This document shows, one piece after another, positions 3,400 to 23,019 of a stretch of DNA of 25,796 bases (position 1 is its first letter; each line of letters begins with the position of its first letter). Under the pieces are notes generated by a model. It searched no databases. It was not told where the DNA came from and saw only the letters and a program-made list of their open reading frames with translations. Origin of the DNA: a virus. Location: positions 1 through 25,796 of IMG/VR virus record IMGVR_UViG_3300041403_000211; one strand, 5' to 3'. Both the position numbers and the translations under genes were made by a program.

Positions 3400-3720
3400 T
3401 TAGGTAATGTCGTCAGTGATGACGATCTCGATGTAGCTTGAGTTTGGGAAGGTCTCGATTTTCCCGCTTTCATACGTCACTTCGAACTCGGCCTGAAACG
3501 TGCCAGCCGTCGCGGTGTCCGCTGCCACCCATCCGTATTCAACAGTCCCATCAGTAGCCGAGAGAATGACCGCAGGCTCGTCGATGATGACGGTGCCTTC
3601 AGCATTTCGCACATGAAAGCGAACGGTCGCGTTTGTTATATCGACCGGAGAGCCATCGCCGTCGAACATTTGCGCCTGAATGTTCGGGCTGGTGTCGTTC
3701 TGTTTTAAGTTGAATGTCAT
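3400..3720 (-). CDS. BppU N-terminal-like baseplate/fibre adaptor
   Basis: The 106-residue product begins MTFNLKQNDTSPNIQAQMFD, followed by DGSPVDITNATVRFHVRN and a Gly-Thr-Phe-Gln-Ala-Glu-Phe-Glu-Val strand. This is the pattern of the N-terminal Ig-like domain of lactococcal baseplate upper protein BppU. That domain attaches receptor-binding modules to the tail tip in Gram-positive phages and also occurs alone in many siphoviruses. No receptor domain is fused here, so it probably serves as an adaptor or decoration between the hub and the separate LamG fibre. The ATG at 3720 overlaps the end of a possible 21-codon ORF; no strong Shine-Dalgarno is present. The domain call rests on motif resemblance. 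Confidence 0.7.
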   Translation of the reverse strand: MTFNLKQNDTSPNIQAQMFDGDGSPVDITNATVRFHVRNAEGTVIIDEPAVILSATDGTVEYGWVAADTATAGTFQAEFEVTYESGKIETFPNSSYIEIVITDDIT

Positions 3721-3782
3721 TTTTCAACGGCCCTCTTTTGCCGGACTATAGCGGAAAAACTGTAGCGTGTCATCGCGTTCAT
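3717..3782 (-). CDS. Possible 21-residue micro-ORF between hub and BppU-like gene
   Basis: An ORF of 21 codons (MNAMTRYSFSAIVRQKRAVE plus a final Lys) fills the gap between the hub gene and the BppU-like gene. Its ATG overlaps the hub stop as ATGA, and its TGA overlaps the next start as ATGA. It has no Shine-Dalgarno of its own beyond possible reinitiation. It could be a real peptide or a translated spacer that carries ribosomes to the next gene, which itself lacks a good ribosome binding site. I recognise no family. Chance could also produce this, so confidence is low. Confidence 0.3.
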   Translation of the reverse strand: MNAMTRYSFSAIVRQKRAVEK

Positions 3783-6700
3783 CCACACAGATAAATGCAC
3801 GCGACCATCTTCACCTGTGTCGGTGAATCGAACGTCACGTCCTCACGAGCCTTGGCAACCGTATAGCTGCGCACGATGTCATCGGCCTGTTTCATGCCCT
3901 TGCCGGGGATGCTGGATGTGACGATCAGATCGCCTTTGGAGATGTCGCCGTTCTCTCCGCAGACGTTGATTGCGCCTTCGCCCACGGCGTTGATGTCCAC
4001 GAGGTCATAGTCATCGTGATATACAGACGGGTCAGCAATAAGAACCGGATCAACCTTAACTCCTACTGCTTGCGCGGCCTTTGTAGCGGGCCTGTTGATA
4101 AAGGCCGGTGGAAGAATCCATCCGCCTTTTCGTTTCTGCAAAACGCCGATAGCAGCGGCTTGGTTCGCGCTCGCAGAGATTGCAACTTCCCCAAAGCTGT
4201 CCGAGATCGTCGAAACTACAATGGAATGGTCAATGAGAATGTCGCCCGGAACGCAGGAAACAGTTTTCAAAAGCATTGCTATGTGCGTCCCGGTGAAAGG
4301 GCTAAAGCCATTGCCAGAGCCATCGAGGCCGCCATTCTCACTGCCTGCCGGGATAAAGAGACCGTATCCACCGTCATAGCCACTTAGTGCAATCTGGCAG
4401 AGACCCGGACCAGTTGCGCCGTCCGAGCGCGTTGAAACAGCATCAATGCAAGTAGAACCACCAGTTCCTCTGTTTTCGACATAGATGCCGTCGCCTGTGC
4501 CTGATGGAGACGTTGGGCTGAGGCCGTTGGCAATAACACGAAGTGCCGTTCCATTGAAGTTAATGGCGTCAATGCAGTATCTAGCGGATGCGTGACGGTA
4601 GACTTCAATCGCGTCGGTAGTCTCCGCAGAAGCACTCGCAGATGCCGTGCCGGGGTTAAGTATGACACCTACGGAAATCGGAGGAGATACGAGCGAATCA
4701 ATGATGTCAATGCCACCGCCCGTCATATCAACATCACCACGAACGGTCACATCATTGAACACCGCATCACCAGAATCTCTTGCAATAGCCCAGCCTTGTG
4801 TTCCGGGATTGGAGATGGAACCACCAGAAAAAGCACCGTTGAAGTTATCACTTGCGAGGTCAGTGGCAATCTGAGCCGCCCCGGACGGTGTACCGAAAGA
4901 GAACTCGGTATTCGGAACGGATGTCTGAGGATAGCTAAGGTCACCAGATACTGTGACGGTATAAGGTGCTGACCACTCAAGTAGGTCTAGACTACTGACT
5001 TCGACTTGAGGCTGAGTATGACGCCATCCCGTTGTTGCTGAGAACGTACCGCCAGTGAACTCTCCGGTGCTTTCGTTAAAAGTGACACTTGTTTCCGAGA
5101 TTGCCCCCGGACCCGGTGATTCATCAAGTTCGTTGTAATACACTCTCCCAGTATATGTCCGATCTCCATTAGCACCCGGAGTTCCAGCAGGGGCAGAGGT
5201 TGTTGTGGCACTTGCCTCGTTGGAATACGCACTCTCGTTCCCAGAGAAATCTACAGCAGTCACCCTGTAGTAGTATGTCGTACTGTCTGTCAGGCTAACA
5301 TCAGACCATCCTGCGCCAGCGGTATTGTCCTCCAGTAGAGCAGGGTCCGGCGTACCATCGCCAAATGGTATCGGAGAGGTGTCCTTATAGATGTTGTAAA
5401 GGAAGATGTCGTTAGCCGCTGAACTGTCCGTGTTTGTAGTTACAGCATTCCATCCCAGCTTAATAGTTCCATAACCAGCCGTAGCCGTAAGACCTGTGGG
5501 CGCATTGGGAATTGTACCGTCCTTGACCGAAGTCGTAAACGTAACAGACCGCCACTCTGATTTCTGGTCAAACGTGTTAAAGGCCCGCACTCGGATGTTG
5601 TAGATGATACCATCCAGAACAGGCTTGATGACGTACTGAGTGGTAGGCTCCCTGACTGTGATACCGGCGAACTTTACAGTGTTCCGCTCTGGTGAAGCCA
5701 ACAGTTGCGCTCTGAAGGCCTCCTCATCTAGGCCAGAACCACCGCCAGTGTTGTAGAAATCAAAACCGTCTTGGTCAGGTTGACGGAATAGAATCTCGAT
5801 ATAGCCCTTGTAGATAAACTGTTCACGGGTCGTTACCGCACTTGCTTCAGCTACAATTCCGCCATTTGCTGCGTAATTTATCGAATCGTTGACGGTCCAC
5901 TCAAGTTCATATCGGCTTGCGCTTGGCGAAGAATCCCAATCCACCAAGATGCCATTCACAAACGTACCGTCAGCCGCAATGACGCCATAAGCAGAAGCTG
6001 TAAGGTTTGATACAGGGTCAGGCGTGAGCGCCAATGTCGTATCATTACCAATGATGTCTTCTTCTTCAGCATCCCAATCAAACGCGGCCTCAGAAGTCTC
6101 CCTGAGCGTAAGAGTGACGCGCAGGTCTCCAGCATCGCCATTGGCTCCAAAGCGCCATCCGACAACTTCAAATTCCTTGGCGGTCCAGCCGTAGCGGTCA
6201 ATGGTCAAGGCGACAATCTCGCCGACCTCCACGTCAAACGCATTCAGGCCAAACTCGGCGCTGAATGTCATCTGCTCGCGCCCACGGAATAGCGTCATCT
6301 TGGCAAGACGCTGGGCGGTCGCGGCTGATGTGGTAAACGGCAGGTCTAGGTCTAGCGTTTGCTCAACCTCGCCGTCCTGCGTCTTGAATGCAGCCGACTC
6401 AATAGGCGGGTAATCAGCCGCGATATATCTCTGATTGGCGTCTGAGAATACACCCTGAACGCGGTTGAATTGGTCGCGCAAGTTTACGCGGGTTTGCAGG
6501 CTGATTTCTGAGCGAAGATCATCAAGCGTGAATGTCTTAGTCGGAGCGTTGTATTCACCAGGTTGCAGCTTCCATTTGCCCGCACCCCAGAACAGAGTGC
6601 CCGCGCATGACTTGACCATCTCTTGCAGTACATCGCCATAAGATTGGTCTGCCCTGACGACGCCGTTCATCGTGTAGCGGCTCTCAGTGCCGCCTGCATC

Positions 6701-17916: not shown

Positions 17917-19440
17917 TCATCCAGCCGCCAGAGAAAATGTCGGGTCATCCCAAGGCGAAATCTGAGGCGTGCCATCTTCGTGTGCCGCTGCGCCCAATGC
18001 CATCGCAAGAGCAACCAGTCCGTCAATCTTTCCAACCGACTTCATTTTGTTCAGCTTGCGATTGCCTGCTGGGTCGCGCTCTGCCACCGCGTTGGCCGCG
18101 CACATATTGAGGATTGGATTTCCGCCGTGCCGAAGCCGCCGCTCGGCCACCAGTCGCTCTAGCTTATCGACAGCCGGAGCCATGTCCTTGAATCCCTGAC
18201 CAAACGGGGCCATCGGCACCTGCGCGCCAATCGCGTCTAGTTCACGCTGGAAATCGTTAATCCGCCAGCGGTCATAAGCCATCAGTTGAATGTCGTATTG
18301 CTCGGCAGCTTCGGCAACCTGGCGAGCCACGATGGCGGGGACAATCACAGGACCGTCAATAAGCGTCAGAAATCCTTGGTCGGCCCAGAGGTCATAAGGA
18401 ACCTTCTCTGAGCGAGCGCGTTCTCGGATGCCATCGGCAGGCAGGAAGAACTGCGGAACAACGTGCCAGTTCTCTCCGTCGAAGAACGTCATCACGAAGG
18501 CGGTCAAGTCGCGGCTGGCGGATAAGTCCAGCCCAGCCCAGCATTGCATCCCTGAGAAAACCTCTGGCTCTGCGTTGTTGGCTTCCCATTCTGCCCTGTT
18601 CAGGAATGGACTTGTCGCCTCAATTCTCTGGTTCAGATACAACCATCGAAAGCTGTTTTCCTTGGCTGGCAATCGCGCAGCCTGTTTGGCGAAGTCCTCA
18701 ATGTCAGAGACCGAGCGAAACTCCCCAAGCGCCGGGTTTGCCGCTTTCCACGCCTCACGGTCCGTCACGTCGCAATCTTCAGGCGCGGTGTAGACGTGGC
18801 TCACAATGCGCGGGTCTTTGGCGCTCTTGGCGTCATCCAGCCAGATTGAAAACAAGTCGCCATCGGTCGCCGCCTGCGTTGAAATGGCAGTGAGCAGCGG
18901 GTCATCGTGTGCGCCTTGCGCGGTCTCAATGGCCTCAATGAAAGCATCCTGCGGGCCTCTGACTTGACCCACCTCGTCAAGGATTGCCAAGACAGGGCTG
19001 AGACCGTGCGCCGTTCCCGCCTCTGCCGAGATGGCCTTGTATTCGACGTTCATCAGCAGGCCAATAAGCGACTTCTGCGAAGGCACAATGCGGATGATTT
19101 TCGACAAGGCTGGCGAAAGTCTGACCATCTTTTCGGCCAACTTGAAAACTAGACTGGCTTGGTCGCGTGAACGCGCTCCGCTGATAATCTGGCTGTTCTG
19201 CCGTGCTTCCGGCCCGACAAGGTGAGCAAGCAAGATGCCAGCTATGAGAGCGCTCTTGCCGTTCTTTCGTGCCACCGACAGATAGGCTCTGCTGGTGCCT
19301 TTTTTGTTGTCGTAGATGTCCAGGATAAACTTGCGCTGAAACGCCATCAGCTTCATCGGCTTGCCGACGTGCTTGCCTTCTGGGACCAAAACGTATTGGG
19401 TGATGAAATCACAAACGCGCTCACCTCTTGTTTTTGTCAT
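17917..19440 (-). CDS. terL: Terminase large subunit
   Basis: The 507-residue protein starts at ATG 19440 (MTKTRGERVCDFITQYVLVP), which shares one base with the HNH gene stop and has GAGGTG about nine bases upstream inside that gene. The ATPase half shows an adenine-binding FQRKFILDIYD, a Walker A variant SVARKNGKSAL near 55-64, Walker B LAILDEV near 152-157 and the coupling motif LLTAISTQA. The nuclease half has GLDLSASRDLTAFV near 304, LMAYDRWRINDF and a terminal acidic KIDGLVALAMALG near 473. This is the motor that translocates and cuts DNA during head filling. Length and all motifs are complete, so the gene looks functional despite the inserted HNH gene just upstream. A strong terminator follows. 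Confidence 0.95.
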   Translation of the reverse strand: MTKTRGERVCDFITQYVLVPEGKHVGKPMKLMAFQRKFILDIYDNKKGTSRAYLSVARKNGKSALIAGILLAHLVGPEARQNSQIISGARSRDQASLVFKLAEKMVRLSPALSKIIRIVPSQKSLIGLLMNVEYKAISAEAGTAHGLSPVLAILDEVGQVRGPQDAFIEAIETAQGAHDDPLLTAISTQAATDGDLFSIWLDDAKSAKDPRIVSHVYTAPEDCDVTDREAWKAANPALGEFRSVSDIEDFAKQAARLPAKENSFRWLYLNQRIEATSPFLNRAEWEANNAEPEVFSGMQCWAGLDLSASRDLTAFVMTFFDGENWHVVPQFFLPADGIRERARSEKVPYDLWADQGFLTLIDGPVIVPAIVARQVAEAAEQYDIQLMAYDRWRINDFQRELDAIGAQVPMAPFGQGFKDMAPAVDKLERLVAERRLRHGGNPILNMCAANAVAERDPAGNRKLNKMKSVGKIDGLVALAMALGAAAHEDGTPQISPWDDPTFSLAAG

Positions 19441-20066
19441 CACAAAAGCACCTCACGCTTGTCTTTCTTTTTGTTGTTGTCTGCCGCCCACATCGGGCGA
19501 AGATTTGAAAGCTGGTTCAGCGCAACAACATCATCTTCAGTCTTTGCCGATGAAATCGGAATAATGTGGTCAATCTGCCACTCGCTCATATTCTTCCATG
19601 ACATGCCATCTTTGAATTGACGCTCAATGTGAGTCACAAATTCATCGACAGAATAGCCGAGGGATTCAAATGTCGGTGATTTCTTTATAGCGCCGATCTG
19701 GGAAAGTGCGTGCCTGTGAAGCCTAGAAAGTCTAGCCTGCATATTCCTAACCGGGCAATTCTTGCGCTTTTCTCTTTGGCGCGCGGCGTTTCTTTTAGCA
19801 CTTTCTTCCCTTTCCTTATCAGACAAAACCCTTCTGGCACTTGCTCGCTGAGCGGCCAGTTCGGACCTCAAGCATCCGCAAGATTTAGTTTTGTGCGGTT
19901 GTTGGGTCTTCACTTCTGAACCGCAATCACAAATTGCGAGCCAAATTGGCTTTTTATGCTTACTAATCCCGACCTCACGAACAAAAACAAGACGGCCATT
20001 CCTTGTGCCAGCCCTGTCAATGCGGCGATGCGATCTGCCTGTTTCTTTGTTGACGCCTTTTGCCAT
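19440..20066 (-). CDS. Free-standing HNH homing-type endonuclease
   Basis: I use ATG 20066 (MAKGVNKETGRSHRRIDRAG, 208 residues); an upstream TTG would add 15 residues. An N-terminal basic strand leads to a four-Cys knuckle, CDCG (Cys46, Cys48) and SCGC (Cys63, Cys65), as in many phage homing nucleases. A basic helix (about 80-125) follows, then the HNH core: FKDGMSWKNMSEWQIDHIIP with His167 and LNQLSNLRPMWAADNNKKKD with Asn188. Such enzymes cut DNA lacking their own gene and spread by repair. The location between methyltransferase and terL, the absence of a good ribosome binding site and the terL-like fragment upstream mark it as an inserted mobile gene. The last codons carry the terL ribosome site. 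Confidence 0.88.
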   Translation of the reverse strand: MAKGVNKETGRSHRRIDRAGTRNGRLVFVREVGISKHKKPIWLAICDCGSEVKTQQPHKTKSCGCLRSELAAQRASARRVLSDKEREESAKRNAARQREKRKNCPVRNMQARLSRLHRHALSQIGAIKKSPTFESLGYSVDEFVTHIERQFKDGMSWKNMSEWQIDHIIPISSAKTEDDVVALNQLSNLRPMWAADNNKKKDKREVLL

Positions 20067-20097
20067 ATATCGAAAATACAGCAGATTTTCCACTAAA

Positions 20098-20142
20098 GCA
20101 ATGGCACTCAATAAACTGGCAGACCTTCTCGCCGCGTGTCAT
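20098..20142 (-). pseudogene. Remnant of a terminase large subunit start, displaced by the HNH insertion
   Basis: Beginning at ATG 20142, which overlaps the methyltransferase stop as ATGA, the frame reads MTRGEKVCQFIECHC and then becomes unrelated sequence that stops at 20017. The intact terL starts MTKTRGERVCDFI. From Thr, TRGEKVCQFI and TRGERVCDFI agree at 8 of 10 positions, yet codons differ widely (ACA CGC GGC GAG against ACA AGA GGT GAG). This is the ATGA-coupled place where terL would start in an uninterrupted operon. I read it as the original terL 5' end, cut off when the HNH gene and a diverged terL start came in. A chance match is possible but unlikely given position. Confidence 0.65.
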
Positions 20143-21302
20143 GCGGCCTCGCGCTCTTGTTTAAGTTGATCGTGTTTCTGGCCTGTGGCCTCAAGCGTTG
20201 CCTGTTCGCCAGTGAAATCCTGCCAGCGTTTGATGATTACATCGCAATATTTGGGGTCAAACTCCATAATGAACGACTGTATCCCGTGCTTTTCGGCAGC
20301 AATCAGCGTTGATCCGCTTCCACCAAAAAAATCAGCGATGGTATGCGCCGATAGATTGAACCGCTTGATGATCCATTCCATCAGGGCCACGGGCTTTTGC
20401 GTCGGGTGAACTCGGTTTTTCTTTTCACTTGCCATTGTGAACTGGCGCACCACGCTGCGAAAGTTTGCCCAAGCAAGTTCACAATCAGTCTGGTCGCTGC
20501 TGCCGTTGTTTTTGTCCCATACAAGCCAGCATTCGCTGTCAGGAAGGGCGGAGCAATAATAGTTGGCACCCCACCAAATCTGCTTCGCGTCTGGATATAG
20601 GCCATAGATTAACGCAAATGCGTCCTTGGCCACATCAGGGTTATCATCGCCCATGATGTCAGTTCCGTAATTCTTCTTAAGAACTGATGACTTTGTTACC
20701 GCGTTCATGCCGTAGGGCGGATCGGTATGGATCAAGTCTGGCTTTGCGCCATCCATCAGCCGCTCCACCGCATCAATGCTGGTGCTGTCCCCACACATCA
20801 GCCGATGCCGCCCCAGCAGCCACACGTCGCCCTCAACCGTGACAGGTTGTTCTGGCGCTTCTGGCACCGCGTCCTCGTCGGTCAGCCCTTCGGTGCCTTC
20901 CTCGTGCTTCAACAGCGCCACCAACTCATCCTCGCTGAACCCCATCAACTCACCGAAGTCCGACGCCAAGTCCTCCAACTCAACCCGCAGCGCTTCGTCG
21001 TCCCATCCGGCATTCAAGGCCAGCTTGTTATCCGCGATCACCAGAGCGCGGCGCTTGCGCTCATCCAGCCCGGTGACAACCACCGCAGGCACCTGATCCA
21101 GCTTCAGCTTGCGCGCGGCCAGCAGCCGCCCATGCCCCGCAATCAGATTGTTTTTCTCATCGACCAGCACCGGGTTCGTAAAACCAAACTCGCGGATTGA
21201 CGCGGCAAGCTGTGCAACCTGTTCGTCGCTGTGCGTGCGGCTGTTCAAGGCGTATGGAATCAAATCCTCCACCTTCGCCACGGTGTGATTGTAGAAGTCC
21301 AT
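20139..21302 (-). CDS. ParB-N domain fused to N4/N6 DNA methyltransferase
   Basis: The 387-residue protein has two parts. Residues ~1-110 form a ParB/sulfiredoxin-like domain: LIPYALNSRTHSDEQVAQLA, FGFTNPVLVDEKNNLIAGHG and GRLLAARKL with the GHGR signature, then ERKRRALVIADNKLALNAGW. From ~150 a beta-class DNA methyltransferase follows, with catalytic motif IV TDPPYGM near 193, then HPTQKPVALMEWIIK and the AdoMet motif DFFGGSGST near 324 (order IV before I). It would methylate adenine N6 or cytosine N4 in a sequence I cannot predict; the ParB domain may help DNA binding. Phage DNA modification against host restriction is the usual role. It sits between terS and terL, sharing one base with terS (TGATG), so it is made with the packaging enzymes. 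Confidence 0.92.
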   Translation of the reverse strand: MDFYNHTVAKVEDLIPYALNSRTHSDEQVAQLAASIREFGFTNPVLVDEKNNLIAGHGRLLAARKLKLDQVPAVVVTGLDERKRRALVIADNKLALNAGWDDEALRVELEDLASDFGELMGFSEDELVALLKHEEGTEGLTDEDAVPEAPEQPVTVEGDVWLLGRHRLMCGDSTSIDAVERLMDGAKPDLIHTDPPYGMNAVTKSSVLKKNYGTDIMGDDNPDVAKDAFALIYGLYPDAKQIWWGANYYCSALPDSECWLVWDKNNGSSDQTDCELAWANFRSVVRQFTMASEKKNRVHPTQKPVALMEWIIKRFNLSAHTIADFFGGSGSTLIAAEKHGIQSFIMEFDPKYCDVIIKRWQDFTGEQATLEATGQKHDQLKQEREAA

Positions 21303-21781
21303 CAGTTTCTCCGCTCTGGCATGGCGATCAAATCGCTGCCCTCAAGAAAGTCCATAACCGTTCGCGCCTGGCCGCTCGCCTTTGCAGCGCCGTTAATCGT
21401 GCGCGGGTCGCTTGCCATCTGGTTCAGGCTCATCGAACGAATGACCGCAAGCTGACGCCGCTCAAGCGTATCAATCACTGCGATAAGCGGGTTCGGGACG
21501 AGCGTGCCACGCTTGTTCTGAATCAGAACGCCAGAGCGGTCTAGCGTCTCTTGGTGCTTGCGAATATCGGCCTCCATACGAACGACCTTTGCGAGCAGGA
21601 TGAGGTCCATGTCCCTCCAGTCCTCGCGCGCGCGTGCGCGTGTGAACTGTTCCCAGATAACAATTTCCTCATCACTGCGAAGAATAACACCATCAGGCAA
21701 CGGCACAGATTGAACCGCGCCCTGAAAGCCCTCGACGCTTGCTGTCACGCTATTCTTGTCGCTTCGCCTTTTCTGGCTCAT
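21302..21781 (-). CDS. terS: Terminase small subunit (P27-like)
   Basis: The 159-residue protein (MSQKRRSDKNSVTASVEGFQ) has a central helical block (WEQFTRARAREDWRDMDLIL, then LAKVVRMEADIRKHQETLDR) followed by GTLVPNPLIAVIDTLERRQL and VIRSMSLNQ. The VPNP-x-x-x-V plus helical repeat is the pattern of P27-type small terminase subunits, which recognise the packaging site and regulate the large subunit. The helical, charged character, length and place upstream of terL agree. The ATG overlaps a possible 34-residue ORF by ATGA and has GGGG about eight bases upstream. Sequence conservation in this family is low, so the call leans on the VPNP pattern and position. Confidence 0.82.
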   Translation of the reverse strand: MSQKRRSDKNSVTASVEGFQGAVQSVPLPDGVILRSDEEIVIWEQFTRARAREDWRDMDLILLAKVVRMEADIRKHQETLDRSGVLIQNKRGTLVPNPLIAVIDTLERRQLAVIRSMSLNQMASDPRTINGAAKASGQARTVMDFLEGSDLIAMPERRN

Positions 21782-21882: not shown

Positions 21883-22663
21883 CCTTCAACAGCAGTATAT
21901 CCATTTGCACAGTGATTTTTCCGGTCCCGTTGGATACCTTGCCGAGCAGGCCCACGTCGGTCAGTTCCTCAAAAGCCAGCGGCATTGTGAACGTGTCAAC
22001 CAAGGTGTTTTGAATGCCAATCCACTCTGCAATTCGCTTAACTGGCCTGTAAGGTGCGGCAGTTCCCAAAACACCAGAGCGCGACAGCATTAACACATCC
22101 ACCAGCTTCGCGCCCTCAACCGCAATGCTGATGCCTTCAACCAACCCAGTATAATTGCGCGGGATGGTGTAACTTCCTATGCTTGTGCTTGATGTCGGGA
22201 AGCCGTTGACCGGAATAGTTGCCCAGTCAGTTCCGCCCGCTGCATTTTCAATCACAATACTCCCAACATGGGAACCTGCTGATTGCGTTCCATATGTTCC
22301 GCTGTCCACAACTTCTGCACTGAACAGCCGGATGAATGTTGTTGACGTTGCGGCGGATGCAGACGCGCCAGCAGTCGCCAGCGTTTCGGATACAATATCA
22401 CCATCTGCATTTATGCCCGTGAGTCGCACAGAACGCGCACCAGCGCCTGCTGCGGCGTCCGAAGCATTACCACCAGCCTTGATGCGCAGTGCTGTTGCAG
22501 CGCCCGCCTGTGGAGTCCTGTAGACAAGATTGTCAGATATAGGAACGAAAGACGTTCCGACGTTGGCCAAGCCGTAACGATGCGTGACACTTGCGTTGAG
22601 GATATTTCCTCGCGCTACCTGCACGCCCCAACCAAGTTTGTTCTTAAATAGCTGGTCCATCAT
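21875..22663 (-). CDS. Beta-rich virion-like protein of unknown role
   Basis: This 262-residue protein begins MMDQLFKNKLGWGVQVARGN and has TALRIKAGGNASDAAAGAGA, VRLTGINADGDIVSETLATA followed by GASASAATSTTFIRLFSAEV, then IENAAGGTDWATIPV and a C-terminal strand-rich segment. I recall related proteins annotated as structural or hypothetical in marine phages, with the same RIKAGGN-x-x-D-x-AAGAGAR and AGASAS patterns. It has no enzyme motif, Cys or signal peptide. A capsid decoration or head accessory protein is plausible, but placement between the packaging HNH gene and terS, away from the structural unit, is unusual. The start overlaps the HNH stop as ATGATG, so the two are coupled. Confidence 0.7.
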   Translation of the reverse strand: MMDQLFKNKLGWGVQVARGNILNASVTHRYGLANVGTSFVPISDNLVYRTPQAGAATALRIKAGGNASDAAAGAGARSVRLTGINADGDIVSETLATAGASASAATSTTFIRLFSAEVVDSGTYGTQSAGSHVGSIVIENAAGGTDWATIPVNGFPTSSTSIGSYTIPRNYTGLVEGISIAVEGAKLVDVLMLSRSGVLGTAAPYRPVKRIAEWIGIQNTLVDTFTMPLAFEELTDVGLLGKVSNGTGKITVQMDILLLKDE

Positions 22664-23019
22664 TTTACTCCCGGATGCTCAGGGTCTATGGGCCAGCCGT
22701 CTGGTCCCACCTCGGTGTCGTAGCCTCTGGCCTCTGCGCTCTGTAGGTCGCTGTCGTGGTGGCGCTTACAAACGCTCTGAAGGTTATCTATGCTGAAGAA
22801 CAGTTCTGGGTCGCCCTTGTGCGGTTTGATATGATGCACGACGGCTGCGTTGTCGCCCGACCTACCTTTGCGCAGGAACACGCCGCAGCCTTTGTGTTGG
22901 CATCTGTATCCGTCTCTCAGCAACGCTTGGTCGCGTAGATAACGCCAATGCTTGGTGGCATACATCTTGCGGTACTCTGCCGCCTCTGGTGTTCGCCACT
23001 TGTCTAGCATTCTCGACAT
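22660..23019 (-). CDS. Packaging-associated HNH endonuclease
   Basis: The 119-residue protein is of the compact type found beside terminases in cos-packaging phages such as HK97 gp74. It has YRCQHKGC (Cys40, Cys45), the HNH core VVHHIKPHKGDPELFFSIDN (His62-His63, His67, Asn79) and LQSVCKRHHDSD (Cys84, His87-His88). The four-residue spacing of the Cys pairs gives a structural zinc site. Known family members work with the terminase for efficient DNA cutting at cos and head filling, so here it probably serves packaging and not homing. An N-terminal basic helix precedes the zinc site. Its start shares one base with the preceding stop (TAATG). It is distinct from the larger HNH gene at 19440-20066. 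Confidence 0.9.
   Translation of the reverse strand: MSRMLDKWRTPEAAEYRKMYATKHWRYLRDQALLRDGYRCQHKGCGVFLRKGRSGDNAAVVHHIKPHKGDPELFFSIDNLQSVCKRHHDSDLQSAEARGYDTEVGPDGWPIDPEHPGVK

Follow-up and report, generated by a model that had tools for sequence, protein, structure and literature searches.

A Probable Intron-Less HNH Endonuclease Cassette With a Replacement Gene Start at the 5′ End of a Phage Terminase Large Subunit Gene

Gene Organization at the terL Locus

The window, by which we mean the whole stretch of DNA analyzed, is a 25.8-kb virus record, and all of the features described here lie on its minus strand. The terminase small subunit gene terS (21302–21781; PF05119, phrog_5601) is followed by a ParB-N/DNA methyltransferase gene (20139–21302; PF01555 and PF02195, phrog_498), the upstream partner at what was probably the ancestral terL junction. 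The methyltransferase TGA (20141–20139) overlaps an ATG (20142–20140) to form an ATGA (20139–20142), and the frame opened by this ATG reads MTRGEKVCQFIECHC (20098–20142), then departs from terL and ends at a stop codon at 20019–20017. Next come an AT-rich spacer of 31 nt (20067–20097; 29% GC), which from its composition and its absence from HNH-free relatives is probably the left end of a cassette, and an HNH endonuclease gene of low GC content (19440–20066), whose stop codon overlaps the start of terL. The terL gene as a whole spans 17917–19440. Its ATG at 19440 opens a start reading MTKTRGERVCDFI (longer N-terminus, MTKTRGERVCDFITQYVLVPEGK), and 8 nt ahead of it, within HNH codons, is a GAGGTG (19454–19449) that likely serves as its ribosome-binding site. 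Within terL, codons 1–19 (MTKTRGERVCDFITQYVLV; 19384–19440) form an AT-rich, foreign replacement head, codons P20-E21-G22 (19375–19383) a right breakpoint zone, and positions 17917–19383 the native body, with TerL_ATPase and TerL_nuclease domains. The overlapping methyltransferase stop and ATG, the terL-like frame behind it, the intact downstream terL and the ribosome site in the last HNH codons are all present as a first-pass annotation of this DNA had described them.

A second HNH gene, encoding 119 aa, lies upstream of terS (22660–23019, minus strand; PF01844 just below the cutoff), where a packaging HNH gene of the HK97 gp74 type would sit.

The HNH protein of the terL locus probably starts at the ATG at 20066 (208 aa) rather than at the alternative TTG at 20111, because its homologues start there. 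It matches nuclease families in PHROG (phrog_1035 and phrog_374), including an “endonuclease VII” PHROG, and had no Pfam match at E 0.001; a homologue at locus L095 matches HNH_4. Twelve homologues conserve D166-H167, N184, N188, N197, and N198 in the D-H…N…N arrangement of HNH nucleases, and the catalytic residues of the nuclease domain appear to be intact. It is common in the family for the C-terminal coding sequence (..KKxxRxSLL) to run up to or into the terL start. Used as a single query, the protein found no match in viral contigs, and its relatives were recovered with an alignment. A PDB sequence search likewise gave no match, and an AlphaFold prediction from 12 sequences left most of the HNH domain with pLDDT below 50. 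HNH-A and HNH-B were not found in 385 alphaproteobacterial genomes, in a search that had no positive control.

A Putative Native terL Start Behind the Methyltransferase Gene

For 12–15 codons, the frame that opens at the methyltransferase stop reproduces the beginning of a terL gene (MTRGEKVCQFIE..C). Its residues TRGEKVCQFI agree with TRGERVCDFI of the present start at eight of ten positions, and the DNA of the two starts is 45% identical over 42 nt, in agreement with the earlier remark that the residues match while the codons differ. Scored against a profile of 106 terL heads, this relic reached 41.0 bits vs. 35.7 bits for the real terL head of the same phage. A six-frame scan of the window and 438 loci, 5.7 million positions in all, gave just one further strong hit outside terL, a stranded head at locus L199. 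Because its score exceeds that of the real start and its only comparable non-terL hit is itself a stranded head, the upstream fragment is, by this measure, a real terL head far beyond chance.

We compared 80 viral terL relatives, most of them 75–88% identical in amino acid sequence to the body of the window terL and one at 92% over a partial sequence; none of the 80 carries the HNH gene. HNH-free relatives begin exactly as the relic does, their full pattern being MTRGEKVC(Q/A)FIE..C.VPEG, and in 19 distinct loci (21 including two re-fetched contigs), none with the HNH gene, terL overlaps the methyltransferase stop through the same ATGAC as in the window (e.g., GAGGCCGCATGACACGCGG in L041, L046, and L050). 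The first-pass annotation had predicted just such starts close to MTRGEKVC, coupled to the methyltransferase by ATGA. No HNH-free terL was found to have the present downstream start, the closest being that of L040 (79% nucleotide identity). At three loci, L047 and L055 (1427–3500) and L061 (2274–3948), a different gene takes the place of the methyltransferase gene, its match to the window gene being confined to the ParB-like N-terminal part; between it and terL lie ORFs that, judged by eye, look like glycosyltransferase and cytidylyltransferase genes.

The best local matches of the relic to HNH-free terL starts are 82–94% identical in nucleotide sequence. From these alignments, homology of the DNA to that of relatives is certain for codons 1–12 and plausible for codons 13–15, which refines the earlier estimate of about 15 surviving codons. 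Over 42 nt, mean identity to the relatives is 69% for the relic and 52% for the present start, and the relic is the closer of the two in 67 of 77 comparisons. These identities point to the relic as the native terL start of this phage.

A Foreign Head and a Breakpoint in terL

Nucleotide identity of the window terL to its nearest HNH-free relatives is 53% in codons 4–19, rises to 80% in the 16 codons that begin with E21, and is 76% across the body. Per-codon identity sets the edge at V19|P20-E21-G22, and the breakpoint along terL that the first-pass annotation had told us to look for thus lies at codons 20–22. Ranked against 143 HNH-free control loci, the window has the largest step in identity at codon 20, and locus L195 likewise exceeds all of the controls; the control loci are related to each other, and the comparison is therefore a ranking and not a probability. 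GC content is 43% in head codons 1–20, 47.5% in the HNH gene, and 57% in terL, with 55–57% in the neighbors of the HNH gene. A test of codon usage and codon identity within the window terL was weak, since 33 of 460 terL windows were equally low. Among 188 terL heads, the closest to that of the window belongs to L040 (79%), followed in second and third place by those of L195 and L191 (73%), two loci that carry the closest HNH found (62–63% amino acid identity) and whose terL bodies rank about 150th of 188. No donor of the head closer than these 73–79% was found. Taken by its identity profile and composition, the present terL head is foreign, with a sharp edge. The cassette had earlier been proposed to have replaced the methyltransferase–terL junction; the insertion stands, but because the old junction survives intact, its place is better put inside terL codons ∼12–19.

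At L040, which has no HNH gene and whose terL head resembles the foreign head of the window, another small AT-rich ORF (MIGETFNFFEGIGG…; 486–710) lies between terS and terL. We considered L040 as a possible scar of HNH loss, but its inserted ORF has no similarity to the HNH gene.

Transfer of the HNH Gene Together With a terL Head

Loci L191 and L195 were recovered in separate metagenome records. From the terS stop to the terL codons VPEGDLIG they agree at 746 of 747 bases (99.9%), within flanks that are ∼88% identical (87.5% on the left, 88.7% on the right). The chance of a near-identical stretch of 747 bp at this flank divergence is ∼5e-39. The block consists of the spacer, the HNH gene and the terL head, and is thus a transferred tract with co-converted flank. 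The L191 and L195 heads are 65% identical to that of HNH-free L188, and L195 is identical to L188 from codons P-E-G-D-L-I onward. From the block contents and the comparison with L188, the moving unit is the HNH gene plus a terL head, with a right edge that matches the edge in the window. The pairing of an HNH gene with a diverged terL 5′ end, suggested as a cassette in the first-pass annotation, is therefore found as a near-identical unit in diverged surroundings.

Of 189 loci, 18 distinct ones, the window included, have a member of the HNH family immediately 5′ of terL, next to diverse terL bodies, and wherever a gene neighborhood could be read the full-length members occupied this position. 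The presence of the family at this conserved, essential gene is sporadic, as it is absent from close relatives. The L083/L087 group, L095, L135, and L171 have the HNH gene and a head without excess divergence; in the L083/L087 group the gene fits cleanly into the interval from terS to terL, for which L155 provides a close empty counterpart, and a comparison of L182 with L155 also has it simply between these two genes. At L089 (5621), L097 (447), and L135 (1352), the terL frame abuts the HNH stop without an ATG, GTG, or TTG, the junction codons being CTA, CTG, or GTA.

Parallel Cases With a Second HNH Family

A similar arrangement occurs at L044, where the terS stop (510) is followed by a relic, MTTRGEKVC(K), at about 511–539, an HNH gene of 300 aa (581–1483), and a terL starting at about 1476. 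This terL bears a long foreign head, and beyond codon 100 its body is 95% identical to that of HNH-free L016. At L199 (468–1624), a stranded MAKPLTRGDRVIAFIER is accompanied by an HNH gene of 337 aa, in which there is a weak NUMOD3 motif, and by a terL with a long head; this contig is short and looks chimeric at its far 3′ end (response-regulator-like frame, 3473–4021). The HNH family of L044 and L199 has matches among phage genes that carry a homing endonuclease annotation, MobD- and MobE-like ones among them, and is unrelated to the family in the window. Across the loci compared, other phages show independent recurrences of the arrangement, one of them involving an endonuclease of the window's kind and two or more involving an unrelated one.

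Two further loci, L037 (at 458) and L045 (at 534), keep the native upstream DNA and the VTRGEK/VTRGER codons and have no endonuclease; their native first codons run on, without a change of frame, into a long foreign head. The heads of L037 and L044 are 98% identical, their bodies 78%, and the L037 body is 95% identical to that of L015. Both loci look like scars left after endonuclease loss, or like products of head transfer alone. The right edge in L044, L199, L037, and L045 is more distal, at around codons 55–65 or past them.

Model and Alternative Explanations

We consider it likely that an intron-less HNH homing endonuclease cassette with a replacement head entered the 5′ end of this terL. 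In the ancestral phage, terL would have been coupled directly to the methyltransferase gene by ATGA, and a mobile cassette made up of the HNH gene and a foreign terL 5′ segment of ∼19 codons would have entered within the first 20 terL codons. An in-frame join of the cassette head to the native body, at the conserved codons V-P-E-G, would have kept terL whole, and the cassette would have supplied its own start and ribosome site for terL, leaving the old head as a stranded relic. The likely driver would be homing: we infer that the HNH protein cuts at a site in the conserved head of an HNH-free terL and that repair from a cassette-bearing allele copies the HNH gene and the head, while the recoded new head and the broken old head would protect the carrier. 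What the sequences themselves establish is the history of the DNA, namely the relic, the breakpoint, the movement of the cassette as a unit, and its independent recurrence. The left junction differs between cases, lying inside codons 12–15 in the window, where the native head is stranded, and at the terS stop in L191 and L195, where none is left.

The main rival, which we think rather unlikely, is passive modular exchange, whereby ordinary phage recombination at the V-P-E-G codons swapped the 5′ neighborhood of terL and brought the HNH gene along as a passenger. L040 keeps it alive: because the most window-like head (79% nucleotide identity) sits there behind a non-HNH ORF, heads can move or persist without an HNH gene, a point against homing, and the terL heads of several HNH-free loci (L141, L028) also look exchanged. 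However, the block transferred in L191 and L195 is exactly the HNH gene plus head, two unrelated HNH families occur at the same place with stranded heads, and a simple swap would normally remove the old head instead of stranding it. It is a good deal less probable that the HNH protein is a domesticated packaging factor like HK97 gp74 and not a mobile element. HNH genes upstream of terminases act in cos cleavage in HK97 (PMC10448857), but the HNH gene at issue here lies between the methyltransferase gene and terL and not at the cos-side position upstream of terS. Nearly all close relatives lack it, and the separate HNH gene at 22660–23019 holds the gp74 position.

The remaining explanations seem very improbable. 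An assembly artefact joining two phages might be suspected in a virus contig that comes without a coverage figure; the reading frame is intact throughout, however, and the HNH gene and head next to terL recur in several independent contigs, L087 and L088 among them, whose record numbers look like isolate genomes. Slightly less credible is a history in which this phage duplicated its own terL start in tandem, the copies diverged, and the HNH gene was inserted later. It would account for two terL-like starts 700 bp apart, but not readily for copies 45% identical in nucleotide sequence, of which the upstream one matches the relatives and the downstream one HNH-bearing L191 and L195, a mosaic that disfavors duplication. 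Least credible of all is a group I or other self-splicing intron with the relic as first exon, even though HNH genes are often intron-borne and the terL of ICP1 has a short N-terminal exon (PMC10448857). Neither the window region nor L199 has an Rfam match, the gap from relic to HNH gene is just 31 nt, and the overlap of the HNH stop with the terL start leaves no non-coding space 3′ of the HNH gene. Moreover, the downstream copy of terL is a whole gene that has a start and a ribosome site of its own, and splicing would duplicate the terL head.

Beyond the window, we find the case evenly balanced for a general class of phage elements, in which intron-less homing endonucleases of unrelated families insert at the terL 5′ end with a recoded 5′ segment. 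Stranded heads would then be their footprint, long-headed terL genes such as those of L037 and L045 their scars, and some of the variety among terL N-termini a trace of past homing. On the homing cassette reading, bringing along a replacement gene start lets a selfish endonuclease into an essential phage gene with no intron or intein involved. Sequence data contain all three kinds of allele, uninvaded, occupied, and scar-like, which makes the cycle directly testable, and often-chimeric terL starts would bear on gene-start annotation and terminase phylogenies.

Comparison With Known Systems

In the open-licence literature we found no description of a 5′-end version, in phages, of the terminus replacement known from fungal mitochondrial mORFs. 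The region upstream of terminases is a reported hot spot for HEG-like genes, and the available portion of PMC10448857 on these terminase-locus nucleases does not describe stranded heads, replacement heads, or scars. The window HNH protein resembles F-CphI and other enzymes with an Endo VII motif (PMC6083498) in its “endonuclease VII” PHROG match and its C-terminal nuclease motif; because it has DHIIP and not DHDH and lacks a CXXC pair flanking the motif, we do not claim membership in that group. Like the seg and mob genes of T4-like phages (PMC2988022), the element is intergenic, intron-less, next to a conserved essential gene, and spread with co-converted flanks. Free-standing homing endonucleases of T4-like phages cut hundreds or thousands of bp away and usually leave the target gene unbroken (PMC2988022), whereas the insertion here falls inside the likely target, among its first ∼20 codons, and leaves a stranded fragment behind.

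The nearest parallel is the fungal mitochondrial mORF. mORFs replace the 3′ ends of genes (atp6 in Allomyces; atp6, atp9, cox2, and nad3 in Glomus), and the native and foreign termini of Glomus atp6 are 63.5% identical in nucleotide sequence and differ mainly in codons (PMC3630166). As in those cases, an intron-less endonuclease ORF lies in an essential gene, a foreign terminus restores the terL frame, and the native terminus is stranded. Unlike mORFs, which act at the 3′ end with LAGLIDADG or GIY-YIG enzymes, the present case involves an HNH enzyme and the 5′ end of a phage gene, and because it is the 5′ end that is replaced, the cassette must also supply a start codon and a ribosome site.
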